Source: Bolinopsis microptera
Taxonomy: Eukaryota > Ctenophora > Tentaculata > Lobata > Bolinopsidae
Length of the DNA: 64,000 bases
Assembly: GCF_026151205.1 (NCBI RefSeq)
Contig: NC_087072.1
Location: 12,004,169 to 12,068,168, forward strand
Reading direction: 5' to 3'
Shown: positions 5,685 to 40,111 of the stretch, piece after piece
How the letters are laid out: each line of letters begins with the position of its first letter
Position numbering within the stretch: the stretch's first letter is position 1
Program-made: the position numbers and the translations under genes
The notes under the pieces: generated by a model
What the model saw: only the letters and a program-made list of their open reading frames with translations
The model's database searches: none
Told to the model about the DNA's origin: nothing

Positions 5685-5793
5685 ATGAAGGGACATTACT
5701 CACTTCTTTATGACTCATGTTTCAAGATGTTGTTGCTAGTTTTATTAACCGTCGTACTCACGGTAAAGCCCAGCCATGCTGATTCGGACACAG
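5685..5793 (+). CDS. Lectin gene exon 1: signal peptide
   Basis: The ATG at 5685 opens a 36-codon exon with a hydrophobic core ([13 protein letters not shown]) followed by KPSHA, a plausible signal-peptidase site, and then DSDT. It ends in phase 1 at a GTTAGT donor. An acceptor-like AG at 5659, preceded by pyrimidine-rich sequence, suggests an upstream non-coding exon. Decayed copies of this exon lie at about 6510-6627 and 14055-14085. Confidence 0.75.
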
Positions 5794-8700
5794 GTTAGTA
5801 AATGTTTGTATGAAATTGTAGGTGGGCGTGTGTATAACACGTGGGCGTGTGTATTTGACACGTGGGCGTGTGTATAACACGTGGGCGTGTGTATAACACG
5901 TGGGCGTGTGTATTTGACACGGACAGAAATCCTAAAAATCCGATAATATCGAGTTTTCTGGAATTCGTTTTATACTTTTATACAGTAAAAATGTAAATAT
6001 AATCAAGTCCAATGATAGAAATTGCAATTGGACATCGAAAATACTAATAAAACTAGGAATCGGTGTGCCAGGTAATGGAAATATTTACTTCCAGGAACTT
6101 GGAGCAAGAACGCTGGTAAATATCTGAGCGGCTACAGCGCAGGAACCGCCAAATACGACAGTCTTCTGGAGGCTCAGAGCGAATGTCTCAAACGATCCGG
6201 TCAGTTTAAACTTGCAGTTAATTTGATGATAAATTAGAAAATTAATTGGTTATCTTGCAAAATTTAATATACAAAAGATATACAGAATCTCTGGTAAAAT
6301 ATCAATTCACCTTAAATGCCACCTTCTACTAGATTGTGGAGGTATCACATACGAGACCATATCCAAAAAGTTCACTCTTCGAAGAGGAGTCAACCTCAAG
6401 GACAGTCCCTCCAGTGAAATCTCCTGGATGGCTATCTCAAGTGATGATGAAGGTAACCAATTATTTCTAGCGCTAGATAGCTCTATACCAAAAATCAGTC
6501 CTCACTTCTTGAGTTCTTTATACTCACTTCTTTATGACTCATGTTTCAAGATTTTGGTGCTACTTTTATTAACCGAAAACCGTCGAACCCACGGTAAAGC
6601 ACAGCCATACTGATTCCGACACAGGTTGGTTATTTCGTTATGAATTCATGAATTGAAAGATTAAAAATGATGAATTTGAAAGTTATATCTAACGATTAGT
6701 TAATGATCATACTGAAAGTAGCGGTCAAACTCAGTTCAAATTCAACCATTCAGCTCCCTTACGTTTATCAATGAACAATTAAGGTTTTTCTAATATTGAC
6801 CCGGAGCTAGAGACTAGACAGCGATAAGACTGACGTTACCTCAGGTACTCTGACACTGGGACGTCACTACACATCCCGGCAATCAGGAGATGCCACTTTG
6901 GCAATTGCTGGTGCTACAGAGGATCTAGCACAGAGAGGATTCGACAACACTGTATCTCGGTATAAAATCGACGGAAACGAAGTATGGGAGTTCTATGATG
7001 AACCTAACTTTGAGGGTCTTCTGTTTACTGCTAAAGGGCCTATTGATTGGACTTGGGTTGATAGCAGATACAATGATATGGTCTCATCTGTTAGACAAGT
7101 CAGCGGTGAGTGGTGTTTAAACCTTGTTGATGTGTTATGTGGTGTTTAAACCTTGTTGATGTGTTATGTGGTGTTTAAACCTTGTTGATGTGTTATGTGG
7201 TGTTTAAACCTTGTTGATGTGTTATGTGGTGTTTAAACCTTGTTGATGTGTTATGTGGTGTTTAAACATTGTTGATGTGTTATGTGGTGTTTAAACCTTG
7301 TTGATGTGTTATGTGGTGTTTAAACCTTGTTGATGTGTTATGTGGTGTTTAAACCTTGTTGATGTGTTATGTGGTGGTTAAACCTTGTTGATGTGTTATG
7401 TGGTGTTTAAACCTTGTTGATGTGTTATGTGGTGTTTAAACCTTGTTGATGTGTTATGTGGTGTTTAAACCTTGTTGATGTGTTATGTGGTGTTTAAACC
7501 TTGTTGATGTGTTATGTGGTGTTTAAACCTTGTTCATATGTTATGTGTTGTTTAAACTTTGTTCATGTGTTATGTGGTGTTTAAACCTTGTTGATGTGTT
7601 ATGTGGTGTTTAAACCTTGTTGATGTGTTATGTGGTGTTTAAACCTTGTTGATGTGTTATGTGTTGTTTAAACCTTGTTGATGTGTTATGTGGTGTTTAA
7701 ACCTTGTTGATGTGTTATGTGGTGTTTAAACCTTGTTCATGTGTTATGTGGTGTTTAAACCTTGTTGATGTGTTATGTGGTGTTTAAACCTTGTTCATAT
7801 GTTATGTGTTGTTTAAACTTTGTTCATGTGTTATGTGTTGTTTAAACCTTGTTCATGTGTTATGTGGTGTTTAAACCTTGTTGATGTGTTATGTGGTGTT
7901 TAAACCTTGTTGATGCGTTATGTGGTGTTTAAACCTTGTTGATGCGTTATGTGGTGTTTAAACCTTGTTGATGTGTTATGTGGTGTTTAAACCTTGTTGA
8001 TGTGTTATGTGGTGTTTAAACCTTGTTGATGGGTTATGAGGTGTTTAAACCTTGTTGATTTGTTATGTGGTGTTTAAACCTTGTTGATGTGTTATGTGGT
8101 GTTTAAACCTTGTTCATGTGTTATGTGGTGTTTAAACCTTGTTGATGTGTTATGTGGTGTTTAAACCTTGTTGATGTGTTATGTGGTGTTTAAACCTTGT
8201 TGATGTGTTATGTGGTGTTAAACCTTGTTGATGTGGTATGTGTTATGTGGTGTTTAAACCTTGTTGATGTGTTATGTGGTGTTTAAACCTTGTTGATGTG
8301 TTATGTGGTGTTTAAACCTTGTTGATTTGTTATGTGGTGTTTAAACCTTGTTGATGTGTTATGTGGTGTTTAAACCTTGTTGATGTGTTATGTGGTGTTT
8401 AAACCTTGTTGATGTGTTATGTGGTGTTTAAACCTTGTTGATGTGTTATGTGGTGTTTAAACCTTGTTGATGTGTTATGTGGTGTTTAAACCTTGTTGAT
8501 GTGTTATGTGGTGTTTAAACCTTGTTGATGTGTTATGTGGTGTTTAAACCTTGTTGATGTGTTATGTGGTGTTTAAACCTTGTTGATGTGTTATGTGGTG
8601 TTTAAACCTTGTTGATGTGTTATGTGGTGTTTAAACCTTGTTGATGTGTTATGTGGTGTTTAAACCTTGTTGATGTGTTATGTGGTGTTTAAACCTTGTT

Positions 8701-11700
8701 GATGTGTTATGTGGTGTTTAAACCTTGTTGATGTGTTATGTGGTGTTTAAACCTTGTTGATGTGTTATGTGGTGTTTAAACCTTGTTGATGTGTTATGTG
8801 GTGTTTAAACCTTGTTGATGTGTTATGTGGTGTTTAAACCTTGTTGATGTGTTATGTGGTGTTTAAACCTTGTTGATGTGTTATGTGGTGTTTAAACCTT
8901 GTTGATGTGTTATGTGGTGTTTAAACCTTGTTGATGTGTTATGTGGTGTTTAAACCTTGTTGATGTGTTATGTGGTGTTTAAACCTTGTTGATGTGTTAT
9001 GTGGTGTTTAAACCTTGTTGATGTGTTATGTGGTGTTTAAACCTTGTTGATGTGTTATGTGGTGTTTAAACCTTGTTGATGTGTTATGTGGTGTTTAAAC
9101 CTTGTTGATGTGTTATGTGGTGTTTAAACCTTGTTGATGTGTTATGTGGTGTTTAAACCTTGTTGATGTGTTATGTGGTGTTTAAACCTTGTTGATGTGT
9201 TATGTGGTGTTTAAACCTTGTTGATGTGTTATGTGGTGTTTAAACCTTGTTGATGTGTTATGTGGTGTTTAAACCTTGTTGATGTGTTATGTGGTGTTTA
9301 AACCTTGTTGATGTGTTATGTGGTGTTTAAACCTTGTTGATGTGTTATGTGGTGTTTAAACCTTGTTGATGTGTTATGTGGTGTTTAAACCTTGTTGATG
9401 TGTTATGTGGTGTTTAAACCTTGTTGATGTGTTATGTGGTGTTTAAACCTTGTTGATGTGTTATGTGGTGTTTAAACCTTGTTGATGTGTTATGTGGTGT
9501 TTAAACCTTGTTGATGTGTTATGTGGTGTTTAAACCTTGTTGATGTGTTATGTGGTGTTTAAACCTTGTTGATGTGTTATGTGGTGTTTAAACCTTGTTG
9601 ATGTGTTATGTGGTGTTTAAACCTTGTTGATGTGTTATGTGGTGTTTAAACCTTGTTGATGTGTTATGTGGTGTTTAAACCTTGTTGATGTGTTATGTGG
9701 TGTTTAAACCTTGTTGATGTGTTATGTGGTGTTTAAACCTTGTTGATGTGTTATGTGGTGTTTAAACCTTGTTGATGTGTTATGTGGTGTTTAAACCTTG
9801 TTGATGTGTTATGTGGTGTTTAAACCTTGTTGATGTGTTATGTGGTGTTTAAACCTTGTTGATGTGTTATGTGGTGTTTAAACCTTGTTGATGTGTTATG
9901 TGGTGTTTAAACCTTGTTGATGTGTTATGTGGTGTTTAAACCTTGTTGATGTGTTATGTGGTGTTTAAACCTTGTTGATGTGTTATGTGGTGTTTAAACC
10001 TTGTTGATGTGTTATGTGGTGTTTAAACCTTGTTGATGTGTTATGTGGTGTTTAAACCTTGTTGATGTGTTATGTGGTGTTTAAACCTTGTTGATGTGTT
10101 ATGTGGTGTTTAAACCTTGTTGATGTGTTATGTGGTGTTTAAACCTTGTTGATGTGTTATGTGGTGTTTAAACCTTGTTGATGTGTTATGTGGTGTTTAA
10201 ACCTTGTTGATGTGTTATGTGGTGTTTAAACCTTGTTGATGTGTTATGTGGTGTTTAAACCTTGTTGATGTGTTATGTGGTGTTTAAACCTTGTTGATGT
10301 GTTATGTGGTGTTTAAACCTTGTTGATGTGTTATGTGGTGTTTAAACCTTGTTGATGTGTTATGTGGTGTTTAAACCTTGTTGATGTGTTATGTGGTGTT
10401 TAAACCTTGTTGATGTGTTATGTGGTGTTTAAACCTTGTTGATGTGTTATGTGGTGTTTAAACCTTGTTGATGTGTTATGTGGTGTTTAAACCTTGTTGA
10501 TGTGTTATGTGGTGTTTAAACCTTGTTGATGTGTTATGTGGTGTTTAAACCTTGTTGATGTGTTATGTGGTGTTTAAACCTTGTTGATGTGTTATGTGGT
10601 GTTTAAACCTTGTTGATGTGTTATGTGGTGTTTAAACCTTGTTGATGTGTTATGTGGTGTTTAAACCTTGTTGATGTGTTATGTGGTGTTTAAACCTTGT
10701 TGATGTGTTATGTGGTGTTTAAACCTTGTTGATGTGTTATGTGGTGTTTAAACCTTGTTGATGTGTTATGTGGTGTTTAAACCTTGTTGATGTGTTATGT
10801 GGTGTTTAAACCTTGTTGATGTGTTATGTGGTGTTTAAACCTTGTTGATGTGTTATGTGGTGTTTAAACCTTGTTGATGTGTTATGTGGTGTTTAAACCT
10901 TGTTGATGTGTTATGTGGTGTTTAAACCTTGTTGATGTGTTATGTGGTGTTTAAACCTTGTTGATGTGTTATGTGGTGTTTAAACCTTGTTGATGTGTTA
11001 TGTGGTGTTTAAACCTTGTTGATGTGTTATGTGGTGTTTAAACCTTGTTGATGTGTTATGTGGTGTTTAAACCTTGTTGATGTGTTATGTTCCGTCAGTA
11101 CCGCAAAGATTTTAAACGCATAATGAACGAAAAGATGAGACTCAGTGTCGAAGATGATTCTGATTCTGCCCTTATTTCCAAAAAGTTTTGGACACACGTG
11201 AAATCAAAGTCTAAGTCGACTAGGATACCTGAAACGGTCCGATACGGTGATCGTTTTAGGAACACAACAGTTGAACAGGCTAACTTATTCAATGAATACT
11301 TCTATCAACAATTCTCCTCAAGTAGCTCATATGACATTGACATCGACATGAGCTCCAGTAACAATTTTATGGATTTGAGATTTCACGTGTTGGATGTTTT
11401 GTTAATTTTGAAAGGGGTTAAACCGGGTAAAGCCGCAGGTCCAGATGGTATCCATGGCACTGTGTTAAAAATTGTGCGAGCACTCTTGCAAAGCCTCTAA
11501 CCATGATTTTCAACAGCTCTTTTGTGACTGGATGTGTGCCGGAGGAATGGAAGCTTGCTTCTGTTGTCCCGGTACACAAGAAGGGTGAAAAAGGATCTGT
11601 TGAAAATTACAGACCCATCTCACTGACATGCTTAGTTATGAAAGTTTTTGAACGTTGTATTTCGAAAGAGTTGCTCGCAGCTTGTGAAGGGTTAATCGAC

Positions 11701-14700
11701 TGTAGACAACACGGTTTTGTGAATGGGAAGTCTTGCACTACCCAGATGGTCCCATTCACAGAAAACCTTGCACTGGCCCTGAACAATAAGTCAAGATCCG
11801 ACATTGTTTATTTTGATTTCGCTAAGGCATTTGACAGTGTCTCACATGACTTAATCCTTCGCAAGCTAAAAAATTTATATGGTATTGATGGTCTGATGCT
11901 TAGATTTTTAAAGTCGTATCTACAAGACAGACGACAGCAGGTTGTTGTAGGCGGAGCTGTCTCAAGCATGCTTCCCGTGCAATCAGGAGTGCCCCAGGGA
12001 TCTATTCTGGGACCACTTCTGTTTGTTCTATTCATCAACGACATGTTCTCGTGTGTCTCGGAGGATACAAATGAAGCATTGTATGCAGATGACACCAAAA
12101 TTTGGAGGGTCATCGAATGCTTTGAAGACCACTATATTCTTCAAGGAGATATAGACAGGTTGTTTGCCTGGTCAATCGATAACAAAATGACTTTTCACCC
12201 TTCAAAGTGTAAGGTGTTATCTGTAACTCTGCAAAGAAATGTATTAGACAATCTTCCTTTTAATATTTATTGGTATAATCTTAAATAACGGAGTAGTTCG
12301 CTGTTTATTAGTCTCATGATTGAAATACTGATATCTGGATATTATCCGGTTGGAAGAGACAAGGACAAGTGAAACAAGGAAGTTAGGAGTTAGTTTTAAT
12401 ACTTTCAACACTACTATATAACAAATAATTTGAGCCTGAAGATGGCGTTGACGCCGAAAATTTGCCCTTACTCCTAACTTCCTTGTTTCACTTGTCCTTG
12501 TCTCTTCCAACCGGATAATATCCAGATATCAGTGGTATAATCTTAATGAAGTCATAATTGATTATGTGGCATCCCATACAGATCTTGGTGTAATAATGAA
12601 CAACAGGTTTCTGTGGGGTGCACATTGTGATCAATTGATATCTAAAGCAAGCTCGAAGCTTGGGCTCTTAAAGAGAACCTGTCATTTTACCATGAATAAA
12701 CGCCAAAAGAGGGCTTTCTACCTTACCATTGTAAGATCAATCTTTGAACATTGCTCAGTTATATGGTGTCCTCAGCGATCGACACACATGTCGAAGTTTG
12801 AGGCAATCCAGAAAAGAGCGATCAAATGGATCAATGGACAACAGTTTGATCATTATAGTGATATTGTATTTTATGAGAAGCAGAAGGAGCTTAAAATTCT
12901 ACCCATTAGATCTAAGTTCATCCATAATTCAATTACGCTCTTCTATAAAATAGTAAATGATTTGGTAAGTATATCTCTACCTGAATATATTACTGTTGTT
13001 GAAGCTGGAACAATGAGGTACACAAGGAGCACGGCATCAGTCATTGAAGGACTTGACACCAGCACATATACCTGCTCTATTGTACCAAACTGCGATAGTT
13101 TCAGAAACAGCTTCTTTTATAGAACAATGCCTCTGTGGAATGCACTGCCAGCCTATGTTAGACAGACTGAGAAAATTTCTATTTTCAAAACAAAGCTAAC
13201 TGAATTTCTCTGGTCTTCTGACGTATGCTGGCCTGATTAGACGGCCCATCATGGAATATTATTATATATATATTTTACTTTATGAATGTCATACTCTCTA
13301 TAATTTGCCCCTCGCACCTGCAGTAGAACGCGCCGTTTTTTCTCTTATGAAACAACCCGAAACAAGCGCGTCACGCAGTACGTGAGTGGCTAGATTATAG
13401 ATTGTTTTATTATAATATTATTTAATTATGTTATTTTGTTGTTATGTCGTGTAAGTTTGTGGAGTAGTAGCAAGAAGGTATCGTATACATTTAAATTTGT
13501 TCTCTTGATTATTTATTAATGATTTTATGTAGGGTCGGCACCAATGTTATTATGGTCTTACCACCGTGTTTTGGTTCAGCCGAAATAAATTTTACCTTGA
13601 TGTTTTTACATATTGTTTCTCACTCCAGCTGAGTCTGGTAGTGTTGAGTATCATGAATATTTTTCTAGCTCTCTTTTTCCATGTTTTTGCTTCACAGGAG
13701 ATATTGTGGTCTTTTTATTGAATATAACTGTAATACATTGATGTAAAGTTTATTTGAATTTTGAAATAAAAAAAAAAATGTGGTGTTTAAACCTTGTTGA
13801 TGTGTTATGTGGTGTTTAAACCTTGTTGATGTGTTATGTGGTGTTTAAACCTTGTTGATGTGTTATGTGGTGTTTAAACCTTGTTGATGTGTTATGTGGT
13901 GTTTAAACCTTGTTGATGTGTTATGTGGTGTTTAAACCTTGTTGATGTGTTATGTGGTGTTTAAACCTTGTTGATGTGTTATGTGGTGTTTAAACCTTGT
14001 TCATGTGTTATGTGGTGTTTAAACCTTGTTGATGTGTTATGTGGTGTTTAAACCTTGTTAAAGTACAGCCATGCTGATTCTGACACAGGTTGGTTATTTC
14101 GTTATGAATTCATGAATTGAAAGATTAAAGATGATGAATTTGAAAGCTACATCTAACGATTAGTTAATGATCATACTGAAAGTAGCGGTCAAACTCAGTT
14201 CAAATAAACCTTCAGCTCTTGATTTGGAATCAGTTCTAATTGAGACTACTGCGACCTCCCAGACACCAGCACTCCAGACTTTTGACCACACTTCTGACCC
14301 CACTTCTGACCCCACTGAGGTCCCTCTCACAAGTGAGTATACAGTAAATTAGAAAGTTATCATGTTCTAAGTTATCATGTTTGATGTTTCTAAGGACATT
14401 GAAAATACTAATAATCCTAGGAATCGGTGTGTCAGGTAATGGAAATATTTACTTCTAGGAACTTGGAACAAGAACGGGTCATAGCACATACAAGGCCCCC
14501 GACCGACCTCCGTCCTCCGACCTACCTCCGACCGACCTCCGACCGACCTCCGACCGACCTCCGACCGACCTCCGACCGACTTCCGAGTGATTTCCGAGTG
14601 ACCTCCGACCGGCGCCCGACCGGCGCCCGACCGGCGCCCGATCGACCCCCGACCAACCTCCGACCAACCTTCAACCAACCTCCGACCAACCTCCGACCGG

Positions 14701-20700: not shown

Positions 20701-23700
20701 GATCAACAACCCCTGGTGACTAAACGAAATTAAACGGAAGTACAACGGCCTGACCGATTACGCTCAGAGTGACGTCTATTGTGTGTTATTGCAAACAGTG
20801 ACCATAGACCAGTTCCAAAGATTCTTATCGGCCAATGAAGATGAGTCCGTTGTAACTGAGGCAGAACCATCTTTAGTTCACGAACACAGTTTAAACATAT
20901 GTCCATTCTGTAACCTAGAGATCGCACCAAATGATAAATCCTCAAGTCGGGTTACAGGCAGGGTAAGTTATTGTGTGGGGGGAGGGGGGAGGTGGTATAG
21001 TACACATACGTTAGGCATTTTTACCCTACGTCTTGGGGCGATTCGGAATGTCCAAAAATACACTGATTTAGATTAATTTCATACCCAAAGGGCCTTTAGT
21101 AGGAGTGCATACGTTAGGGTATTGTTTCTCCGTAGCTTAGTGCACTGGATTATCACTATAGGGATCGTGCAGACAGCCCAATTACGGTATCGTAGCACCC
21201 TGTCGCATGATTAGCGATTAGGTAATCATTGATTACCCAATCAATTTCGCAAACGAGATAAACAAATTGCTTGATGACTTCGTCATTTTCAGTCTGTTTC
21301 GCGCCATCTTTTCAGAATTCAGATCATATTCCGAATGGAATGGCCTATTGCAATTTGCAATGTGCAGTTTACAGCATGTTCGCAAACACGATTATGTTGA
21401 TTACAAGACTCAACGTATGTGTATTAACTCACGGCACCACCACTCCCCCTAAACTTGGAGGATATTTTGATTTTTAAATGTTATTTAACGACCACGTTGC
21501 TGCTATAATACCGATTTGAAACATTACTTATCCAGGGGATTGCAGCAGTATTGTTGCACTTACCAAGTGACACAGATTTCAAAGTTGGTGACTATCTACA
21601 GTCTACACGCGAAGTGCAGAAAAAATATGACACGTCGATCCCCAACTAAACCTGCATTGGAGCGTGCTGTAGTAACGAGAGAGGTATAGACCGATTTTAA
21701 ATGGCTTCATAAGATACATACTTCTATATTATAATAGTACAAAATATCGCGATGGATTGAAACTTAGTTTCAGGAAATACTTCATGAGCTGAAGTTGGTA
21801 AGGATCGGCTATTCAGAACTATCGCATCTATCGATGAAAGTGTGATAGATGCTTTTTATTCGGCAAATTCTACACCAGCTACCATAAAGCATGTCGGAGA
21901 ACTTTTGATGCTGCAGCTGATTTCATAAAAATCGAGATCACTAGATGAAGCCAGACTTTCAGTTCTTGAACAGAAGTCGCAATCTTCAACAGCAGACATC
22001 AAGTGCAAACAGCTCCCGCCAACATCTGGGGCAGTTGAACAACATTCTTATCGTGTTTACCATCAGCTGTAGGCGTGGGATGAGAATGACCTAGATCCGA
22101 TAAGCTGGGGATGGAAGATGAACAATGGAGCACATGTACCAGTGACCACTCTTATGAGTACAGCTCCGAAAAAGCTCATTCAAAACATCAGTTGCAACTG
22201 TTTAAAGTCAGGTTGTGGCAATGCTTGTTCATGCAGAAAAGCAGGAATAAATTGTGGATCAACCTGCCTCAAATGTCAGGACAATTGCACCAATGTGCCA
22301 GCTGAGGACTCATAAGTATCTAGTATATAATATATATGGTAATATAAAGTGCTGCTTCGATTTCCCAATCAATTTAATGAAAAATTGTTAATTATTCGTG
22401 TTATGCAATTTTAAAATATTGTGATCGAAAATAATTTTTATAATTTTTGAATATTTGTTAAATAATTGATTAACTGATTAATTAATTATCTAATCCAAAG
22501 GTTGGCGAATAAAAGTTGTTCTCTCTTATGTTATAAACACATCGGTTCAATCTAGAACCTTCTACGACATTCAGAAGTCGTTTTATTAGCGGAGATCCAA
22601 TGTGGTAAAAAGTGGTAACTAGTGGTTATTCTTTACAAATTTCGAAAATTTTACAAGTCCAAAATATTGAAAGTGAAAATTTTCAAAAGTTTTATAAAAA
22701 TTAGTTCATTGTACGTGTAATGCAATTGTGAACATTTTGTATCAAAATATATTTTTGAAATATTTGAAAATTTACTTATTATTTAATTAATTAATTAAAT
22801 AATTTATTTTTGAAAAAGTTGTCCGAGAAAAAGTTGTTCTCCTTTGTTTTCTAAACACACTGCTTTAAACTAGAATCTTCTAGGATATTCAGAACGTGAC
22901 TTATTTGCGGAAAACCAAAGTGGTAAAAAGGTGGTAAAAAAGTGGTAATTGTGGATTTTGCTCAAGTCAGATTTTTTGGGAATTTTCTGGAATAATTCCT
23001 GGGACCTGTCCCGACCATATCCCGTTAAAATCGCTTTGTTGCGAATTTTGTCCGACAAAAAGACGGATTTGACTGTAGTACTATATAAGAATCACAGAAT
23101 TATTTATAAGTCTCATTTATACGGCCAATTTCACTGCTGTAACCATAGCATGTGTAAACAATAAATTGTATTAGTTCCCTTTATTTGAATGCCACCGACA
23201 TTTATCACACAACATTATTTTTTCTATTTATCCAAAAGCCTCTGATAAGTGTAAGTTAAGTTTCAAAATTAAGGATATTTAATGAAACACTAATACTAAC
23301 TCCAAAGGTTGTGCTAAACTCAAGGACACAAAGCGGGTGGCAAACTGAGTTAAGGACTTCACTGCCTGCCTTTGAAAACGGGAAAGCATTTAAAGTTGAT
23401 ATCAAATGTTTGGATGGAGAATTTGAGATCTATCATTGTGGCAATGTTAGTATTATCCTTATATGGACATAACGCGTGAGGTCTACACTTAGTAACTAAG
23501 CCTTTCACTAGCTTCAAGCATAGACCTTTAATCAGCTTTGATCTCTTTACTTTCATTTAAAATTATTGCAAAAGTTTCCTCTCAGCGCACCTCTAATATA
23601 AGCCAGAGTTGAAAAGTACGTGAGATAATTTTTTAAATACGCCGTATTTTGCGTATTTTTGCTTATATTATAAGCTCATCTCAGGTACTTGGATCAAGGT

Positions 23701-26700
23701 TCCCTTATCGAGACGGCTTTGCTCTCGAAGAAGTCGAGTTCATCTGGTTACTTGGAGGAAATCAAGGCATGGTTTGGACGGATTTGGCTGTGACTCAACG
23801 TAATATTCCTTTTTAACATAAGATTGCGTTTTGTGGAACAATTGCTTAATCAAATTATGTAGGATACGAGATGGTTAAAATTGTCTCTGATATCTAATTT
23901 CCATTGACGTTTCCCAACAATACACTTACACAGCAAGAATTGCTAAAGATACAGAACTAAAGATGGTGGCTGCAACTCAGAGCAGCATCGGCTGGAATGG
24001 AGTTCCAACAAGAGCCATTGATGGATATACTGATGGAAACTTCTGGGCTCGGTAAGTTGACATCGTCTACTCGTCTAGATTCTAGATTGGTAGGTAATAC
24101 TGATAAATAAATTTTTAGCACTTGAACTGTTAATAAACAATAAAAGTTGACAAAAAACGGATGTATTATATTCTATGCACAGTGGGAACTTGATGATAAA
24201 AATGGCTTGGAGTTTGAGATAACTGCCAATATTTCAGCTCCTGCATGCACTCTGAAGGGTTTAAAAACAACTGGTGGATGGCAACTCTGGCTGAGAATTC
24301 CGCTGTTAGCAAAGTTGTTATCCACAACAGGGTGGATTGTTGTTCCGAGAGGATTAATGGAGCTAAGGTTAGCACGCCTAAAAACATGAATTATCAGGAG
24401 ATATTGTCCAATCAGAGCACAGTGGTTACACCACGTGACACAAACCAACCAATCAGAGCACAGTGGTTACACCACGTGACACAACCTAACCAATCAGAAC
24501 ACAGTATTTACACCACGTGACACAAACTAACCAATCAGAGCACAGTGTTTACACCACGTGACACAAACTAACCAATCAGAGCACAGTGGTTACACCACGT
24601 GACACAAACTAACCAATCAGAGCACAGTATTTACACCATGTGACACAAACTAACCAATCAGAACACAGTATTTACACCACGTGACACAAACTCACCAATC
24701 AGAGCACAGTATTTACACCACGTGACACAAACTAACCGATCAGAGCACAGTGGTTACACCACGTGACACAACCTAACCAATCAGAGCACAGTACCTAAAA
24801 CATGAATTATTCAGAAGTTCAGAGATGTTGTCTATAAAACCTCCGCAAATCTCAACATTTAACTAGTTTATATTATTAAGGTATTATAGTATTATAATAT
24901 TAAGGTATTGTAGTATTATCTCACTCCCATCAAGATTTACGTGGGCGAAGTGTTTTGTGGAGAGGTTCATTACAAAGCCGGTGTGGTTATATACGAGGTG
25001 CAATGTGGTGGAACAGTGGGAGGAAGTGTTAAGATAGTACAGAATGACCAGTATCTGACGTTATGTGAGGTGCAGGTATTTGGAGCACCTTCTCAACACA
25101 TCCCCCTCACTAACATTGCTACAGGTCTGTAACATGAACATTGATAGATAATACATTTGTTAATTGATTGAAATGTTAAATTGTATTAAGTTCATAATTT
25201 TCAGATTTATCATTCTGTAGTTAGAATTATTTCATATTTGATATTTGACGTGAACATTAAGGCGCCACAGTATGAGCATTATTAAAGTCACTATTGTGGC
25301 GGTACATTAGAACTAGACATATGCAGAGAGCTGAACAAATAATTAAGCAGGATCTCCGTCCTGGCAGAGTAGTGAAGGATGGTCTGGTGAAGCTAGCAGA
25401 GGTACAGATGGACGCACCAACGGGGACTACTGGGACGGATCCTGCACCCACAGCGCGTCAACCTCCTCTAACAAGTGGACCGTTACTCTCACTGCCGAGT
25501 ACAGGGTTAACAGGGTCGTTATTCACAACAGGGTGGATTGCTGTGCTGACAGGATTCAGGGTGTACAGGTTGGCATTTTGTTATTTACAACATATCAAAC
25601 TTTTAAAATAAAAAAATAGAAAAGTTGGAGGGCACTAAATAACGGTTAGACTGTGAGTGCTGACTAAAGACCGTTAGGCGGTCGCGCGCTACTGCAAGCG
25701 AGAGGGCTCTGGTGAGTGCTGACTCCGACTATGATATCTTGACGCTTCAAAATCTAGATGACATATTTTATAGGTATTTGTGGACAATCGTCTTTGTGGA
25801 ACAGTTGACTACGTGGCTGGGAAGAACGTGTTTGTGGTGGATTGTGCTGATCTGATAGGCAGTGAGGTCAGGGTAACTCAGGACCAAAACTATTTGACCC
25901 TTTGTGAGGTAGAGGTTTTAGGTGAGTCACAACAGTGAAAAACATTGCGATTTCGGCTCAGTCTACTAGCTTATGTAAAACTACATATGATTAATGATAC
26001 ATATGATAGAAGTCAACTATAATAATTGATACTCAATATATAAACTGGATTGGTCCTATATAAATTAACACATTGGATATGATGATAATCTCACCTCCCC
26101 CTTTGGCTTTATGGGCGATAATTTAGGTGACAGTTTCTAGTAAATTATAATTTCTAGTGAAATTACTTTTGTCTCATAGGCGCTGCCACGAGCCAGGTGA
26201 TAACAAGTGCTAGTTCAGAGCCAGGAGTGGTGACGAGGAGGATAACATCAGGGGAGGGCACACCCACCCAGTCTACTACCTCTCCAACTGAAGAAGTTAC
26301 TGAAGTAATCGAAACTACACTTACAGTAGAAATTACCAGCAAGCCAACCGACGAATTAACTGATAGTTCTACTGAAGAAGTTACTGAAGCAGTTACTGAA
26401 GAAGTTACTGAAGAAGTTACTGAAGAAGTTACTGAAGAAGTTACTGAAGAAGTTACTGAAGAAGTTACTGAAGAAGTTACTGAAGAAGTTACTGAAGAAG
26501 TTACTGAAGAAGTTACTGAAGAAGTTACTGAAGAAGTTACTGATGAAGTTACTAATGAAGTTACTGAAGAAGTAACTAGCGCGAGCATGACAACAGTGCG
26601 TGATATAACAGAAGATTACACAATAGTGGGACCCACTGATTCACTGTTGTGCAAGGAAGACGAGTTTATTTGCCCAGAGAGGTGCATATCTACATCCTGG

Positions 26701-29700
26701 AGATGTGATGGAGATATAGACTGTCTCAATGGAGAAGATGAGGAAAATTGTGGTAAGAATTAGTCATTAACCCAGTCTGGCCAAGGTCAAAAAGAAATCG
26801 TGGCAAGTGCCAAGTACGGAATCACGATTTTTCCCATTCTCCGCGACAAATCGCGATTTCCTCAGATCCTTGCGACAAATCGCTATTTTTTCAGTTCTCC
26901 GCGACAAATTGCGCATTTTTCTTTAAATATGAGGACCAAATTTGCCAATTCTCCTTTCAATCCGAGGGCCAAATATTACGTTCTTTATAATTATATGGAA
27001 CCAATCACATCCACAGCCTTCTGAATGTAGGTACGGACTTGAGAAGACCGAAAAATATTTTTTGCTCATCAGGGTAGCATGAAACATGAACAAAAGTAGT
27101 TTCTGATCCAGAACAACTTTGAAAAAATTTCGACTTATACAATTTTCGGTCCGAGTCATTCTCGATAGGTACTTCGATGGTAGAGCTCCCGCTTCCGAGC
27201 TCGTATTGCAACTAGGGGAGGCCGGGAGGTCTGCCTCCCAAGATCGTATTACATGGGGGAAGCCTCGAGTCCAAAATCGTATATCGAGGAGATCTGAGAT
27301 ACGCGTGTACATTTTGACTGTCCATTGTTAATGGACAAGGAAAGTGCCTCAATATGTAACTGTAAGTTACTCTTCTAGTCCATTTTGCAGAAAATTATTT
27401 CTATATATACATAACTCTTATAATAATTCTTACATAATAATTATAATAATTTTTTATTATCACTAGAATCCGCACAGACTTAATATGTGTACACACAAAC
27501 AAACTAGCAAGTCATTACCCTACGAACCAGTCTACCCCTAATTCAGGAGTGTCCGCTTATACTCGGACGATAAGCCCTCGGTCCCCACAAAAGATAATCT
27601 ATAGACTAGTAGTACAATTTGTGAAAAGGAACTCATGGTCAGTCGATAAAACACACGAAAAGCAGTGTGCTCCTTACCCCTTAGTCTCTAGCTTTGTTAT
27701 CAAAACACGTGATTCCACCACGTGATGTTATCTCATTGTAAACTGGGTTTATTCGTTTAATTACGTGTAGTATGGTAAAGTATTAACACAAGTTAACTAA
27801 TAATATTATGTGTATAGTATGAGTACAGATTCGAAGTGGAACATCGAGTTCCGTTCTGGCAAGCTAGGAGGAACCTTTGAGATCGTCTGGAAGGGCTGAT
27901 CTAAAAGCAAGCTCTGCTCAGTATTTATAACTAATCCAACTAGACTAACGAGCTAGTTAACGAATATATGACATCTAACTTTGCTCTGCAATTACATTAT
28001 CTTTCGCCGCGATTTTCGAGATGTTCGCCGCAATTTTGCCTATTTTGGCATGTCGCGGCGCCGCGATTTTTGACCTAAATAATCGCGATTTTCTTTTGTC
28101 ATTGTCTGGCCAATTACATGCTGATACTCTAAACTACTTTATCATCAGTATTTGTACATTCGACATAATTAGATACATAGAGAACGCCAATACACTAAAC
28201 AAGATTTAAATAAATTCAGTTATTTTGTTTACTGTGATTGCTTTCGTAAACCAGGGAATCAAAAAATTATAGTATCAATAATACCGAACGTTGTTAATAC
28301 AACATTCACGCAGGAAATAGTTGTTAATACAACATTCATGCAGGAAATAGTTGTTAATACAACATTCACGCAGGAAATAGTTGTTAATACAACATTCATG
28401 CAGGAAATAGTTGTTAATACAACATTCATGCAGGAAATAGTTGTTAATACAACATTCACGCAGGAAATAGTTGTTAATACAACATTCATGCAGGAAATAG
28501 TTGTTAATACAACATTCACGCAGGAAATAGTTGTTAATACAACATTCACGCAGGAAATAGTTGTTAATACAACATTCACGCAGGAAATAGTTGTTAATAC
28601 AACATTCACGCAGGAAATAGTTGTTAATACAACATTCACGCAGGAAATAGTTGTTAATACAACATTCACGCAGGAAATAGTTGTTAATACAACATTCACG
28701 CAGGAAATAGTTGTTAATACAACATTCACGCAGGAAATAGTTGTTAATACAACATTCACGCAGGAAATATTTGTTAATACAACATTCACGCAGGAAATAG
28801 TTGTAAAGAAAACCAATGCAGAGTTTCATCAGAAGACCCTTTTTTGGAAATGGGTCAAAAGTTGATAGCAAAGAATAAAGAAACTACTTTGGTTGTGGAG
28901 AAAACTGGAAGATTTGTTCTCTACTGCGAAAACAAAAAATTGATTTGGGAGTCCGGTACCGGAGGAGCATCCGTAGTGTCCGGTCTGATCATCCAGGTGA
29001 GTAGTTTTAAATTAATTAAAAGATGTGACGGAAATCCAAGACCTACATAGTCCAACTGTCTCCATTATCATTCATAACCAACACTGGTCTATTCTTACCT
29101 GGGGACCCCAGGCTATTATATTCATGTTCATTATCAAAATCATAATCCGAATAGAGATTCGGCAGAATGACAGGCTGAGTGCCGCCCAGTAAATCTATTC
29201 AAGCTTTGTTCAGATAGTGGTGTAACCCTTTAATACAGTTATCTTGTATTCAGTTATTTGTTACCGGTGTCACACACTCACAACATTTCCAGCGTCACAC
29301 ACTCACAGAGTCACAGTGTCACACACAGCACACTTACAGTGTCACACACTCACAGAGTCACAGTGTCACACACCCACAGAGTCACAGTGTCACACACAGC
29401 ACACTTACAGTGTCACACACTCACAGAGTCACAGTGTCACACACTCACAGAGTCACACACTCACAGCATTTCCAGTGTCACACACTCACAGAGTCATAAT
29501 GTTTCCGGTATCATATTTGTAATGATCGATTATTAATCATAACCAGGCTAATGGTAATATGGTGCTATATGACGACGATAACGAAGTATTGTGGGAAAGT
29601 GGTTCAGGTTCTGCTAACACACAGTCCAGTTACCACACACTGGTAGTAGAGGATGATAACACTCTCGTCCTCTTCAACTCCTGGGGGGTGTCTATATGGG

Positions 29701-29741
29701 AGACTGATACTGCGGGCCTATGTGGGTATATTATATTGTAA
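5685..29741 (+). CDS. Giant mosaic secreted lectin gene (20 exons, about 1126 aa)
   Basis: Coding exons: 5685-5793, 6095-6199, 6333-6452, 6845-7105, 14216-14332, 14948-15065, 15178-15288, 15515-15663, 15974-16123, 18816-18928, 23308-23445, 23685-23799, 23934-24051, 24238-24367, 24935-25124, 25351-25568, 25774-25921, 26180-26752, 28794-28996, 29547-29741. Every junction is AG/GT, all phases match, and the total is 3381 nt (1127 codons with stop). The predicted protein has a signal peptide (1 to about 32), PAN/apple-like (37-111), beta/gamma-crystallin-like (112-198), Thr linker (199-237), galectin 1 (238-363), galectin 2 (364-535), F5/8C 1 (536-681), F5/8C 2 (682-803), Thr/Glu repeat stalk, LDLa (about 958-994) and B-lectin (995-1126). 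Most domain borders are phase 1, as expected for exon shuffling. It is expected to be secreted and multivalent for glycans (inference). An AG at 5659 upstream of the ATG suggests a spliced 5' UTR. Joining the last two exons is the least certain step, because a competing terminal exon exists at 27829. Confidence 0.8.
5820..5925. repeat. Minisatellite, about 19-20 bp unit, 5 copies
   Basis: Units containing gtgggcgtgtgtataacac alternate with a gtatttgacac variant. The array starts about 27 nt after the exon 1 donor. Confidence 0.8.
6095..6452 (+). CDS. Lectin gene exons 2-3: PAN/apple-like domain
   Basis: Exons 6095-6199 and 6333-6452, both phase 1 to phase 1, give a small module. It starts [19 protein letters not shown] and has [17 protein letters not shown], then FTLRRGVNL and SWMAIS. 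The A-x-x-x-C-x5-C-x-G-I-T pattern and the closing -YTLR/FTLR-G...W are typical of PAN/apple-like folds in invertebrate lectins (family knowledge). Two cysteines are visible. Adhesion or ligand binding is the likely role. Confidence 0.55.
6510..6735 (+). pseudogene. Decayed duplicate of lectin exon 1 inside intron 3
   Basis: The stretch 6515-6627 repeats the exon 1 sequence (actcacttctttatgactca, then ttttattaacc, then gattc-gacacaggtt) with small insertions and a disrupted frame, still ending at a GT. The following segment to about 6735 recurs almost unchanged at 14070-14205. This shows local duplication of the 5' end of the gene. Confidence 0.7.
6845..7105 (+). CDS. Lectin gene exon 4: beta/gamma-crystallin-like domain
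   Basis: An 87-residue module, phase 1 on both sides. The key stretch is [20 protein letters not shown], which fits the Greek-key motif (Y/F-x4-5-F-x-G), followed by the calcium-binding type N/D-D-x-x-S-S motif in [11 protein letters not shown]. The first half ([15 protein letters not shown]) could be the preceding strand pair or a linker. Calcium binding is inferred from the motif only. The donor GTGAGT is followed within 6 nt by the 29-bp minisatellite. Confidence 0.65.
7112..11090. repeat. 29-bp minisatellite, about 137 copies (left part)
   Basis: The unit contains ggtgtttaaaccttgttgat followed by gtgttatgt, period 29. It starts 6 nt after the exon 4 donor and fills intron 4. Copies between about 7500 and 8340 carry variants (gttcat, atgcgtt, gtgttg, gttgatttg). 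From about 8340 to 11080 the copies are essentially identical. The array is interrupted by the LINE and resumes at 13779-14060. Confidence 0.97.
11091..13240 (+). pseudogene. LINE reverse transcriptase remnant (three open pieces)
   Basis: Open pieces are 11091-11500 (palm entry, GKAAGPDG), 11503-12288 (catalytic palm with YADD) and 12566-13240 (thumb/connection). The first junction is a frameshift. The second is caused only by the inserted fold-back element; the reading frame on both sides matches once that insert is ignored. The catalytic aspartates of FDFAKAF and YADD are present. Not expected to make an active protein. Confidence 0.88.
12285..12546. mobile_element. Fold-back insertion with 14-bp target duplication and hammerhead-like core
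   Basis: The sequence tggtataatcttaa occurs at 12271-12284 and again at 12533-12546, framing a 262-bp insert. Inside, a long inverted repeat (ctgatatctggatattatcc ... ggataatatccagatatcag) extends about 65 bp per arm. Near the loop, at 12436-12459, lies CTGAAGA, a GGCG/CGCC stem with loop TTGA, then GAAA, resembling a hammerhead ribozyme core. Variable 12-15 bp target duplications and hammerheads are known from Penelope-like elements, so a non-autonomous relative is possible (inference). I could not pair stems I and III. Confidence 0.6.
13779..14062. repeat. 29-bp minisatellite, right part (about 10 copies)
   Basis: Same unit and phase as the array at 7112-11090, separated from it only by the LINE. 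It ends at about 14062, where a copy of the exon 1/intron segment begins. Confidence 0.95.
14055..14205 (+). pseudogene. Second decayed copy of exon 1 end plus intron
   Basis: From aaagtacagccatgctgattctgacacaggtt onward (about 14062-14205) this matches 6595-6735 with few changes. The duplicated block therefore flanks the whole exon 4 and minisatellite region. Confidence 0.7.
14216..14332 (+). CDS. Lectin gene exon 5: Thr/Ser/Pro linker
   Basis: The acceptor ccttcag and donor GTGAGT bound a phase 1 to phase 1 exon of 39 residues. It is rich in Thr, Ser, Asp and Pro ([12 protein letters not shown], then [16 protein letters not shown]). Probably an extended O-glycosylated spacer between the crystallin-like and galectin parts. 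No other function seen. Confidence 0.55.
14395..14480 (+). pseudogene. Partial copy of lectin exon 2 and its acceptor
   Basis: Matches 6030-6118 (ggaatcggtgtg-caggtaat, then atttactt-taggaacttgga), including the splice acceptor. It then diverges into the GC-rich array, so exon 2 was duplicated here and destroyed. Confidence 0.65.
14500..14760. repeat. GC-rich 10-11 bp tandem array
   Basis: Degenerate repeats of ccgaccgacct and related cccgaccggcg and ccgaccaacct units. All overlapping open frames here are artefacts of the repeat. Confidence 0.9.
14948..15663 (+). CDS. Lectin gene exons 6-8: galectin domain 1
   Basis: Exons 14948-15065 (phase 1 to 2), 15178-15288 (2 to 2) and 15515-15663 (2 to 1). 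The order [38 protein letters not shown], then VVVLNN-GWKTEVR and [20 protein letters not shown], closing FPHRVD, follows the galectin beta-sandwich. Compared with the usual H-x-N-P-R ... V-x-N ... W-G-x-E-x-R sugar-binding residues, this copy has HVDFRP, VVLNN and GW-x-T-E-x-R. The W, E and R positions are kept, while the H/N positions are partly changed. Beta-galactoside binding is therefore plausible but not certain. Confidence 0.75.
15974..16123 (+). CDS. Lectin gene exon 9: start of galectin domain 2
   Basis: Phase 1 to phase 1 exon encoding a linker ([10 protein letters not shown]...[10 protein letters not shown]) and the first galectin strands [20 protein letters not shown], the counterpart of the PLEVGDT strand in galectin 1. 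Donor GTCAGT. Confidence 0.65.
16252..18760. mobile_element. Hairpin-headed repeat element, copy 1
   Basis: It starts with a near-perfect inverted repeat: arms 16252-16393 and 16427-16568, 142 bp each with one mismatch, and a loop of about 33 bp. About 2.2 kb of non-coding sequence follows and is collinear with 47350-48952. Both copies have atgctggc / cagtgctggc near 17800 / 48609 and its inverse gccagca-tgtgat at the right end, so the last part may be a separate hAT-like insertion. A (TA)n tract lies at 17560-17605. No protein recognised. Confidence 0.75.
18155..18280. mobile_element. 126-bp MITE with 9-bp target duplication, copy 1
   Basis: The element begins ttgattcacgatg (element start inferred) and ends gcgctacaa. 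It is flanked by gtgtaaaag on both sides (18146-18154 and 18281-18289). The two ends form imperfect TIRs (TTGnnnCrCGATG). The 9-bp duplication suggests a Mutator- or Merlin-type mover. It is nested inside hairpin-headed copy 1. Confidence 0.75.
18816..18928 (+). CDS. Lectin gene exon 10: galectin domain 2, central strands
   Basis: Phase 1 to 0 exon encoding [20 protein letters not shown], then [15 protein letters not shown]. It aligns with the AWGV...KFSVNI...LLHVDFRPF segment of galectin 1. The donor GTACGT is immediately followed by the target duplication of a MITE. The next galectin strand (VVLNSRT) comes only after an intron of 4.4 kb. Confidence 0.72.
18942..19060. mobile_element. 119-bp MITE with 9-bp target duplication, copy 2
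   Basis: Same family as 18155-18280, flanked by gtattatct at 18933-18941 and 19061-19069. The insertion lies just inside the exon 10 donor and duplicated intron bases starting at intron position +5, leaving GTACGT intact. Confidence 0.78.
19102..19160. repeat. 17-bp tandem repeat, about 3 copies
   Basis: Units of gtggcgtaacacgaaca. Short array in intron 10. Confidence 0.8.
19240..23075. mobile_element. 3.8-kb DNA transposon with about 670-bp TIRs, TA-flanked
   Basis: The ends are CAGTCAAATCCGTC at 19240 and the inverse at 23075, each next to TA (left attagta, right tagtact), so a TA target duplication is likely. The TIRs run inward to about 19910 and 22400 with few differences. The interior holds decayed coding pieces (20200-20720, 20730-21080, 21530-21650, 22010-22315). 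The last encodes a Cys-rich CXC domain. It fills most of intron 10 of the lectin gene. The superfamily is not settled; the TA target and CAGT end recall Tc1/mariner/pogo-like elements. Confidence 0.8.
22010..22315 (+). pseudogene. Transposon protein remnant with CXC (Tesmin/TSO1-like) domain
   Basis: The frame reads [20 protein letters not shown], has a stop shortly after, then [14 protein letters not shown], then [30 protein letters not shown]. The P-P-T...H-S-x-R-V-Y...L-x-P-x-x-W-G-W...C-x-C arrangement is one I know from repetitive transposon-like proteins in many invertebrates, often labelled Tesmin/TSO1-like CXC. One stop interrupts it here. Upstream pieces such as 21536-21647 ([20 protein letters not shown]) belong to the same broken gene. 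Confidence 0.6.
23308..23799 (+). CDS. Lectin gene exons 11-12: end of galectin domain 2
   Basis: Exons 23308-23445 (phase 0 to 0) and 23685-23799 (0 to 1). They give [20 protein letters not shown], then [19 protein letters not shown], then [20 protein letters not shown], matching the V-x-N, W-x-x-E-x-R and closing F-x-H/Y-R strands of galectins. The canonical V-x-N, W, E and R residues are present. The C-terminal strand is longer than in galectin 1 ([11 protein letters not shown]...MVWTDLAV). Confidence 0.72.
23934..25124 (+). CDS. Lectin gene exons 13-15: F5/8 type C domain 1
   Basis: Exons 23934-24051, 24238-24367 and 24935-25124. The sequence has [20 protein letters not shown], then [17 protein letters not shown], then [31 protein letters not shown] and [11 protein letters not shown]. 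This is the fucolectin-like form of the discoidin fold with the C-C pair (DCC) and the closing L-C-E-V motif. Fucose or other glycan binding is likely by family. An AT-rich tract and a 42-bp array lie between exons 14 and 15. Confidence 0.8.
24408..24792. repeat. About 42-bp minisatellite, 9-10 copies
   Basis: Units contain ccaatcagagcacagtggtt and then caccacgtgacacaaac. The array begins 40 nt after the exon 14 donor. Each unit carries CACGTG and CCAAT-like motifs, but no promoter role is implied inside the intron. Confidence 0.93.
25351..25921 (+). CDS. Lectin gene exons 16-17: F5/8 type C domain 2
   Basis: Exons 25351-25568 and 25774-25921. They encode [34 protein letters not shown], then [37 protein letters not shown] and [12 protein letters not shown]. 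It closely parallels F5/8C domain 1, with the same DCC and LCEV motifs. The first two thirds are in one exon here but two in domain 1. The acceptor (aattaagcag) has a weak pyrimidine tract, so the exact start could shift slightly. Confidence 0.78.
26180..26752 (+). CDS. Lectin gene exon 18: Thr/Glu repeat stalk and LDLa domain
   Basis: A 573-nt phase 1 to 1 exon. After a Ser/Thr-rich start ([14 protein letters not shown]) comes a block of about 15 in-frame T-E-E-V repeats built from a 12-bp unit (gttactgaagaa, 26380-26570). An LDL-receptor class A module follows ([12 protein letters not shown], then WRCDGDIDC and GEDEENC) with all six cysteines and the acidic calcium-cage residues. The stalk length probably varies between individuals, since it is a perfect minisatellite in frame. 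Confidence 0.8.
26770..28115. repeat. TCGCG-rich repeat sequence around the alternative exon
   Basis: Repeated cgcgacaaatcgcgattt-like words occur at 26825-26930 and 27990-28090, with tctggcca close to both outer edges. These may be the two ends of a degenerate insertion, but I could not define TIRs or a target duplication. The middle (27000-27330 and 27400-27800) holds nothing recognisable. Confidence 0.3.
27829..27899 (+). CDS. Possible alternative terminal exon of the lectin gene
   Basis: Acceptor gagtacag, phase 1 entry, then [23 protein letters not shown] and TGA. It joins exon 18 in frame and would end the protein 24 residues after the LDLa module, leaving out the B-lectin. It is short and without a recognised domain. 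It could also be chance. Confidence 0.35.
28290..28793. repeat. 30-bp minisatellite, about 17 copies, abutting a splice acceptor
   Basis: The unit is gttgttaatacaacattcac followed by gcaggaaata. The last copy supplies the acceptor of the B-lectin exon (acattcacgcag, then GAAATAG). Because the unit is a multiple of three, long open frames appear on both strands; they are artefacts. The difference atg/acg divides copies into two types, with the right half homogeneous. Confidence 0.95.
28794..29741 (+). CDS. Lectin gene exons 19-20: C-terminal B-lectin domain
   Basis: Exons 28794-28996 (phase 1 to 0) and 29547-29741 (stop TAA). After [16 protein letters not shown] come three bulb-type lectin repeats: [20 protein letters not shown] with [27 protein letters not shown], and [20 protein letters not shown] with WET. 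The L-V-L-Y/F...x-W-E-S/T pattern is that of beta-prism II mannose-binding lectins; the strict Q-x-D-x-N-x-V-x-Y is changed to G-x-x-V-L-Y and N-x-V-L-Y forms. It ends GLCGYIIL. If exon 18 does not splice here, this would be a separate small lectin gene starting at the ATG at 28850. Confidence 0.7.
29262..29500. repeat. Tandem array of gtcacacactcacagagtca-type units
   Basis: Irregular units of about 12-36 bp built from cacactcacagagtcacagtgt, in the last intron of the lectin gene. Confidence 0.88.
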
Positions 29742-38894: not shown

Positions 38895-38998
38895 TATAAT
38901 TATAAAATATTAGAGAAATAAATCACGTAATTATGAAATATTAGAGAAATAAATCACGTAATTATGAAATATTAGAGAAATAAATCACGTAATCTTGA
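38895..38998. repeat. 30-bp tandem repeat, 3-4 copies, overlapping the GPCR stop codon
   Basis: Unit ataaatcacgtaattatgaa plus atattagaga. The copy nearest the gene provides the last codons (RDLFL) and TAA of the minus-strand GPCR. Confidence 0.85.
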
Positions 38999-40111
38999 TG
39001 CAGACCGTGCTCGCAAGTTGTCCATTCTTATCCAGTTAGCGCTGAGAGTGAGACTAAATTTAGACTCCTTGGTTCTTACTAGATAGATAATGGGATTGAG
39101 TCCAGCGTTAAGGTAGGGACTGACGTTAGTGCAGAAGACAAACAAGCACCTCACGTACTCGTTCCGATAGTTGATAATCTCAAGTCCTGAGTTCTGTTCA
39201 ATGAAGAAGAGGAGGAGGATGACCCAGTATGGGAAGTTAAGGGTAACAAAGAGGAGGGTAACCAGGGTAATTGTTCTGGTGGCCCGGTACTTTGTGCTCA
39301 GGATGGAGCTCCGACCACTCCGTCCGGAATTAGGAATAATCACATCTCCGTCTGGTCTGACGTCTAAGGAGCAAGCTCGGAGCCGGGATGACATGCGACT
39401 CTTGTCTCCATCGCTGTCTTTCCGGATGAGGGAGGAGGTTGGGAAGTTAGAAGCTGATTTGACGAGGGAGACGATGCAGACACAGCAGCTAGCCAGCACT
39501 ATGATGGAGGGGAAGAAGAAGGGGACGAAGAGGAGAAGGTACTCCGCTACGTCGTACAACATCTTGTTAGTGTCGGGGATCACCTGATCAACCGACCAGA
39601 CACAGTTAGTATAGTGCTGGTTGAACTTGTAGAACTTTCTGTCTCCACCAGAATCTGAAGACATGAAAATGTTGAGAAACGGAATGCTCCCAATAATGAG
39701 CTGTATCATGCTGTATCCTGCTATAGATCCTATGATGAGGTTGCTTCTGATATGCTGCATTGGGCTGATGATAGCAATACACCGGGTGAAGCTCAGGATG
39801 GAAATGAGGAAGACGGAGAGTCGGGAGGTTATGTTGAAAACCAGACCAGAAAAATTGCAGAAGGCTTCGTTTTCAAACAGCACCGGTTCCCTGGCCATCA
39901 ATCTTGATATTCCAAACGGTATCCCGCTCCAAAAGGATGTTGTTATGTCCGTGAGGGCGATCAAGATGAAGATCTTACGAGAGAGGAGCTGCTTTTCAGA
40001 GTAAAACATTTTCAGTATCCAGACGTTCCCTATAATCCCCGGCAGAGCTGATGCTAGAGACATTGAGCCAAATAGCATGTCTAGAGACGACGTAGAACTT
40101 GAGTTAGACAT
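38972..40111 (-). CDS. Class A (rhodopsin-like) G-protein-coupled receptor, intronless
   Basis: A single 379-codon frame. I chose the ATG at 40109-40111 (MSNSSSTSS) because it gives a short N-terminus with N-glycosylation sites; the frame upstream lacks an ATG. Seven hydrophobic segments are visible. Family marks: GNVWIL in TM1 (GN), LTDITT in TM2, Cys before TM3 (AFCNF) and in loop 2 (NCVW) for the disulphide, SFTRCIAI in place of the DRY region, FVTLNFPYWV in TM6 (the P of CWxP kept, C/W lost), and NPIIYL in TM7. Intracellular loop 3 is long, Ser/Arg-rich and probably a phosphorylation site. Ligand unknown. It looks like the large single-exon receptor families of cnidarians and other invertebrates (inference). 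Confidence 0.88.
   Translation of the reverse strand: MSNSSSTSSLDMLFGSMSLASALPGIIGNVWILKMFYSEKQLLSRKIFILIALTDITTSFWSGIPFGISRLMAREPVLFENEAFCNFSGLVFNITSRLSVFLISILSFTRCIAIISPMQHIRSNLIIGSIAGYSMIQLIIGSIPFLNIFMSSDSGGDRKFYKFNQHYTNCVWSVDQVIPDTNKMLYDVAEYLLLFVPFFFPSIIVLASCCVCIVSLVKSASNFPTSSLIRKDSDGDKSRMSSRLRACSLDVRPDGDVIIPNSGRSGRSSILSTKYRATRTITLVTLLFVTLNFPYWVILLLFFIEQNSGLEIINYRNEYVRCLFVFCTNVSPYLNAGLNPIIYLVRTKESKFSLTLSANWIRMDNLRARSASRLRDLFL

Follow-up and report, generated by a model that had tools for sequence, protein, structure and literature searches.

Does the DNA between positions 5685 and 29741 encode a single protein that joins several lectin folds, and what might such a protein do? An earlier note on this DNA had drawn 20 exons with consistent phases and read them as a mosaic lectin built by phase-1 exon shuffling. 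We examined this in the window, the whole 64,000-nucleotide stretch of the Bolinopsis microptera genome analysed here, which lies on contig C1, and searched the organism's own genome (264,652,675 bases, 232 contigs) for paralogues. Loci outside the window are given as contig and position.

Gene structure

An independent rebuild from the window DNA yielded a single open frame from 20 exons and 19 GT-AG introns (3,381 nt, 1,126 residues) with one terminal stop, in agreement with the exon number and consistent phases claimed before. The predicted module order is signal peptide, PAN-like module, beta/gamma-crystallin, linker, two galectins, two F-type lectins, acidic linker, LDLa, and B-lectin. 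AATAAA occurs at 29783, 42 nt downstream of the B-lectin stop. The exons and the repeats that touch them are as follows.

5685..5793, plus strand: exon 1, start codon and signal peptide (open frame, donor CAG/gttagt; hydrophobic stretch seen by eye)
6095..6199, plus strand: exon 2, PAN-like cysteine module, first half (phase 1-1)
6333..6452, plus strand: exon 3, PAN-like cysteine module, second half (C13:7556826-7556945 is 90% identical)
6595..6756, plus strand: repeated segment (second copy at 14059-14218, 94% identical)
6845..7105, plus strand: exon 4, beta/gamma-crystallin domain as one phase 1-1 exon (profiles, fold model, paralogues)
7110..14059, plus strand: 29-bp tandem array in intron 4, split by a LINE
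14216..14332, plus strand: exon 5, Ser/Thr/Pro-rich linker (phase 1-1)
14948..15065, plus strand: exon 6, galectin 1, part a (Pfam, paralogues)
15178..15288, plus strand: exon 7, galectin 1, part b, with HVDFRP, VLNN, and WKTEVR (paralogues)
15515..15663, plus strand: exon 8, galectin 1, part c (paralogues)
15974..16123, plus strand: exon 9, end of galectin 1 and start of galectin 2 (paralogues)
18816..18928, plus strand: exon 10, galectin 2, part b, with HVDFRP (92% identity with C9)
23308..23445, plus strand: exon 11, galectin 2, part c, with WQTELR (paralogues)
23685..23799, plus strand: exon 12, end of galectin 2 (paralogues)
23934..24051, plus strand: exon 13, F-type lectin 1, part a (paralogues)
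24238..24367, plus strand: exon 14, F-type lectin 1, part b, with HX26RXDX4R (motif)
24935..25124, plus strand: exon 15, F-type lectin 1, part c (paralogues)
25351..25568, plus strand: exon 16, F-type lectin 2, part a, with HX26RXDX4R (motif, paralogues)
25774..25921, plus strand: exon 17, F-type lectin 2, part b (paralogues)
26180..26752, plus strand: exon 18, Thr/Glu-rich repeat linker (VTEE) and LDLa (LDLa by Pfam, 1.6e-8)
28290..28804, plus strand: 30-bp tandem array, crossing the exon 19 acceptor (28793/28794) into the exon
28794..28996, plus strand: exon 19, CX4C and first half of B-lectin (C12 exon 50% identical, same phase)
29547..29741, plus strand: exon 20, second half of B-lectin and stop codon (Pfam)

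Splice scores are rough, because their matrix was trained, with leave-one-out, on the few sites of the window gene itself. The weakest donor in the model is that of exon 12 (score −2.7). An exon 19 start at 28809 was rejected (acceptor 2.2 versus 8.3 at 28794), as was a start of the B-lectin at its internal Met, since the CX4C lies upstream of it.

One gene or two

Fourteen of the 19 exon joins recur in paralogues within the genome. Joins 1-2, 3-4, 4-5, 5-6, and 17-18 draw on frame, phase, and splice sites alone, the last across a 258-bp intron with splice scores of 10.2 and 4.8. Exons 6-17, which encode galectin-galectin-F-type-F-type, are found in the same order at three loci, C4:5.25 Mb, C9:0.99 Mb, and C13:7.56 Mb, with some exons fused at C4 and C9 relative to the window. 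This paralogy excludes a chance gene model.

The earlier note had itself named an opposing case, a gene ending near 27.9 kb followed by a B-lectin gene from 28.8 kb. In its general form, a galectin/F-type/LDLa gene would stop at 27899, or already at 26763, and the B-lectin would belong to another gene that starts at about 28.8 kb. Several features of the locus fit such a split. An in-frame stop lies 9 nt beyond the exon 18 donor (CGKN*), and since read-through of exon 18 thus stops within three codons, a natural end after LDLa is possible. There is also an in-phase terminal exon at 27829-27899, with a weak acceptor (score 1.0) and AATAAA at 28209, and the intron in question is 2 kb long and filled with repeats.

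Copies elsewhere in the genome argue against the split. The minus strand at C12:13.43 Mb carries an LDLa exon, 62% identical and ending in a phase-1 donor, and, beyond a 328-bp intron, B-lectin exons (50% and 33% identical), in the same order and phase as in the window. Two exons at C1:3.51 Mb encode the last part of an F-type domain followed directly by B-lectin. Moreover, the B-lectin exon of the window has an acceptor and the upstream CX4C but no in-frame ATG before the fold, and a scan of 26.7-28.8 kb for phase-1, signal-type first exons gave two candidates with poor donors, which is the chance rate (26 in 34 kb). Neither AATAAA nor ATTAAA occurs at 26500-28208. The C12 order and the scan led us to reject a split at 27.9 kb, and the C12 and C1 copies together with the 14 recurring joins make it unlikely. 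Two genes in any of these forms are improbable, and the locus most likely holds a single gene as drawn, judging from its sequence.

Domain content

A Pfam profile search of the rebuilt protein, a kind of check proposed in the earlier note, placed Gal-bind_lectin, F5_F8_type_C_2, Ldl_recept_a, and B_lectin above their cut-offs; the crystallin and PAN_1 scores fell under the family cut-offs. The domain list claimed there therefore stands for two galectin, two F5/8C, one LDLa, and one B-lectin module, and, by family and fold evidence, for the crystallin; PAN was not confirmed.

Gal-bind_lectin (PF00337) matched two stretches (6.9e-31), and galectin 1 matched galectins of known structure (1.4e-6). 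The canonical galectin residues are HxNxR, VxN, and WxxExR. Both window domains carry HVDFRP, VLN, and W..E.R, so that VxN and WxxExR are kept and the first motif reads HxDxR; with Asp in place of Asn, neither domain has the canonical signature. Lactose binding by the two galectin-fold domains is doubtful because of this replacement.

F5_F8_type_C_2 likewise matched two stretches (5.9e-24). Against the PDB, the first domain matched best to FBP32 (3cqo, 1.2e-30) and eel agglutinin (1k12, 1.5e-15), and the 1k12 alignment is gap-free through the fucose site. HX26RXDX4R is intact in both domains, and eel agglutinin shows the same 26-residue spacing; a passage in a review gives the motif with X24 spacing (PMC5712786). 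Both similarity (by Pfam for domain 2) and the fucose motif H...RXDX4(R/K) were found, and the predicted domains labelled F5/8C are specifically F-type lectins.

At the C-terminal end, Ldl_recept_a matched at 35.1 bits (cut-off 24.1; 1.6e-8), and the six Cys of the LDLa module fall at residues 970-1003 in the numbering of a 1,135-aa version of the model. B_lectin (PF01453) matched at 33.2 bits (cut-off 32.4; 7.7e-8), and the PDB search returned 1dlp (2.1e-11) together with many plant lectins. The mannose motif of B-lectins is QxDxNxVxY. It is exact at none of the three B-lectin sites of the window, and one relative keeps all three. Given this and the altered HxDxR, the galectin and B-lectin modules may bind weakly or bind other ligands. 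The CX4C ahead of the B-lectin fold is common to the window, C12, and two C1 copies; the B-lectin exon on C13 starts downstream of this motif.

The PAN label was not upheld. PAN_1 scored 12.6 bits against a cut-off of 21.4 (E 0.13), no PAN match was found in the PDB at E≤1, and the fold model (pLDDT 46) was too poor for use. The peptide of exons 2 and 3 had 81 exon matches in the genome, and relatives of the module had no PAN match in Pfam.

The crystallin exon

Crystall scored 21.8 bits on the window protein, against a cut-off of 25. Nevertheless, five of the seven aligned members of the crystallin family matched Crystall at E≤0.01, profile matches to the PDB reached 1.1e-4 at best, and the fold model of the exon was good (pLDDT 87.3, pTM 0.79). 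Searched against the PDB, this model gave 344 matches at E≤10, 33 of them at E≤0.001, and the 50 matches listed were crystallins or what we take to be microbial relatives of crystallins. The family matches, PDB profiles, and fold model together uphold the label, and exon 4 is predicted to adopt the beta/gamma-crystallin fold.

The place of this exon in the mature transcript requires separate consideration. It might be skipped or stray, perhaps along with exon 5, in which case the working protein would be PAN-galectin-F-type-LDLa-B-lectin. No crystallin was matched at any other galectin locus in the genome, and the frame survives skipping of phase 1-1 exons. The exon is also flanked by the two copies of the 160-bp segment (6595-6756, repeated at 14059-14218), and beside it, at 6511-6625 in intron 3, lies a degenerate copy of the signal-peptide exon. 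On the other hand, the exon has a good acceptor at 6845 (score 6.5), with a phase-1 cag/G or tag/G at a position shared by the window and all five paralogous single crystallin exons examined; a start at 6818 was rejected (acceptor −8.2). Its frame is open, and dN/dS was 0.29 against C10:5363106 and 0.27 against C10:11750, values obtained with dS near or above 1, while a third comparison was saturated. We consider skipping unlikely and retain exon 4 in the single-gene model.

DNA likeness to the C10 copy is limited to the crystallin exon (80%). Exon 4 has another relative at C8:14923 kb, a crystallin gene with two contiguous repeats and a signal-like start of its own. For the exon 5 linker, no paralogue was found in the paralogous stretches examined.

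Probable assembly from modules found elsewhere

The modules are found elsewhere in the genome alone or in other company. All eight module borders that lie at introns are phase 1, compared with three of the 11 other introns, in what was a post hoc test. The earlier claim of phase-1 exon shuffling is thus supported by both the borders and the separate occurrence of the modules. The exon 12-13 border is phase 1 in the window and looks like phase 0 at C4 and C9.

The core of two galectins and two F-type lectins has close relatives. The window and C9 proteins are 79% identical when compared across 261 codons of their galectin and F-type exons (dN 0.144, dS saturated). The C4 and C9 genes go on to encode a cysteine-rich C-terminus with no Pfam name, and B-lectin is absent from the matches at both. 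At C13:7.556 Mb, the PAN-like halves (exons 2-3) directly precede galectin with the same donor and acceptor phase, and this junction resembles a gene form that lacks crystallin and linker; at C13:14.38 Mb, the PAN-like pair lies about 6 kb upstream of galectin. An F-type match lies within 10 kb at no fewer than five of 14 hand-listed galectin loci, a count based on a partial F-type list and hand-copied positions.

On C12, the 10 kb upstream of the LDLa/B-lectin exons contained no convincing galectin, F-type, or crystallin match, which suggests that the LDLa/B-lectin cassette travels with different partners. Phase-1 exons (crystallin, linker, and the LDLa and B-lectin cassette) may have been added to a galectin-F-type core.

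A large F-type lectin cluster with interspersed B-lectin, parts of it in one frame, was also observed at C1:3474221-3516386 on the minus strand; it includes an unnamed domain of ~160 residues without a Pfam match.

Tandem arrays and other features of the window

The introns of the window gene hold 16 tandem arrays. Seven of them come within 50 bp of a splice junction, where 1.24 would be expected (P 5e-5; the test was post hoc). As the idea arose from the window data themselves, the test was repeated on paralogous genes, taking tblastn block edges as exon edges. There, 16 of 35 intronic arrays were near splice junctions (4.0 expected; 0 of 5,000 as extreme), in a set that includes the close relatives C4 and C9; one further C1 stretch had no intronic arrays. 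Some repeat units themselves contain a junction: the exon 19 acceptor, the end of an exon on C4 and C9 (with gtaagt), and the start of an exon on C13.

A wider interpretation would be that the window gene belongs to a ctenophore repertoire of mosaic lectins reassorted through exchange of phase-1 exons and cassettes, in which arrays seeded at splice junctions aid exon duplication and recombination. At present, this should be regarded as speculative and unlikely.

Other elements were observed in the window. The LINE-like element within the intron 4 array (11431-13237) has a reverse transcriptase match (RVT_1, 2.8e-28, at 11431-12285). An element in intron 10 (19266-23059) has 626-nt inverted ends that are 97% complementary, and two of its open frames have no Pfam match. 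Positions 56653-59518 form a perfect inverted repeat of 960 nt whose arms are 946 nt apart, and one open frame in an arm has no Pfam match. On the minus strand, 38978-40207 encodes a single-exon rhodopsin-family receptor (7tm_1, 9.4e-14), and 61624-61902 is a LIM domain exon (1.6e-8).

Proposed function

The best explanation of the locus, to which we assign a probability of roughly 0.6, is one gene for a secreted, soluble mosaic lectin that would act as a multivalent cross-linker. Fucose is the probable ligand, most likely through the two intact F-type sites. The F-type domains would grip terminal fucose; the other modules could add avidity, further ligands, or calcium-dependent stability (crystallin, LDLa); and the acidic linker might set the spacing between the two ends of the protein. 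Its site of action would be mucus or the surface of microbes or prey, where it would serve as an agglutinin or opsonin.

No N-glycosylation sequon occurs in the 939-aa core, against 8.4 expected, and none of 2,000 shuffles was as low. Related pieces contain 0 in 261, 0 in 201, and 1 in 317 residues, and the receptor gene of the same window has 4 in 410. The absence of sequons suggests a soluble lectin that lacks ligands of its own and is thereby spared self-binding. By eye, no transmembrane stretch was noticed beyond the signal region.

A role in mucus or defence is only tentatively proposed. It is our first guess, and prey capture is the second. Colloblast glue is how ctenophores catch prey, and repeated lectin arrays such as that at C1:3.47-3.52 Mb would suit a gel, so that the protein could instead be a prey-capture adhesive or a structural protein of mucus. 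In Mnemiopsis, the candidate colloblast set shows an enrichment for signal peptides, which is consistent with this idea; however, the same text names C-type lectin-like matches, and the word galectin does not occur in it (PMC6278862). We regard prey capture as rather doubtful and keep the secreted cross-linking lectin, with its possible defence role, as the working interpretation.

Because lectin families that are large and variable can take part in self/non-self recognition, an allorecognition molecule was also considered. No membrane anchor was seen by eye in the model, and a literature search on this point yielded nothing relevant, leaving allorecognition very improbable.

Relation to known lectins

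The F-type pair resembles tandem F-type lectins (striped bass FBP32, 3cqo; eel agglutinin, 1k12) in having two such domains in a row with the fucose motif; it differs in that galectins, crystallin, LDLa, and B-lectin share its chain. Chimeras of F-type with other lectin domains have been described, for example F-type with pentraxin in Xenopus, and the partners given in the review passages are C-type, H-type, pentraxin, and CCP, not galectin (PMC5712786).

The tandem galectin pair is shared with tandem-repeat galectins (galectin-8 and similar; PDB 4hl0, 3vkl), from which the window galectins differ by the predicted signal peptide, the lectin fusions, and HxDxR. By sequence, the B-lectin is of the same fold family and size as bulb-type lectins (1dlp, 3a0c, 4oit), but it lies in an animal mosaic protein, has CX4C ahead of it, and shows degenerate sugar motifs. 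Exon 4 shares its predicted fold with beta/gamma-crystallins (2bv2, 3hz2, 1hdf), and its NDxxSS near the end resembles what we take to be the crystallin calcium motif; it differs in being a single domain encoded by a phase 1-1 exon within a lectin. The paralogues on C4, C9, C13, C12, and C1 share the core, the LDLa/B-lectin cassette, or F-type with B-lectin, and no paralogue seen carries the full module set.

A literature search, in sources available in part, turned up neither this architecture nor a ctenophore chimera of galectin and F-type lectin, which is not proof of their absence from print. Each single domain is already known; what is new is the combination and its partly visible assembly history.

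Galectin, F-type lectin, and B-lectin are usually met apart and are joined here, which provides a natural experiment on whether new recognition arises when a single chain carries mixed specificities. The immune and mucus proteins of ctenophores are little studied, and the tandem arrays that crowd splice junctions bear on intron and exon change. A single genome shows the assembly of a many-domain lectin from a core, crystallin and linker exons, and an LDLa/B-lectin cassette, with paralogues standing in as the intermediates.
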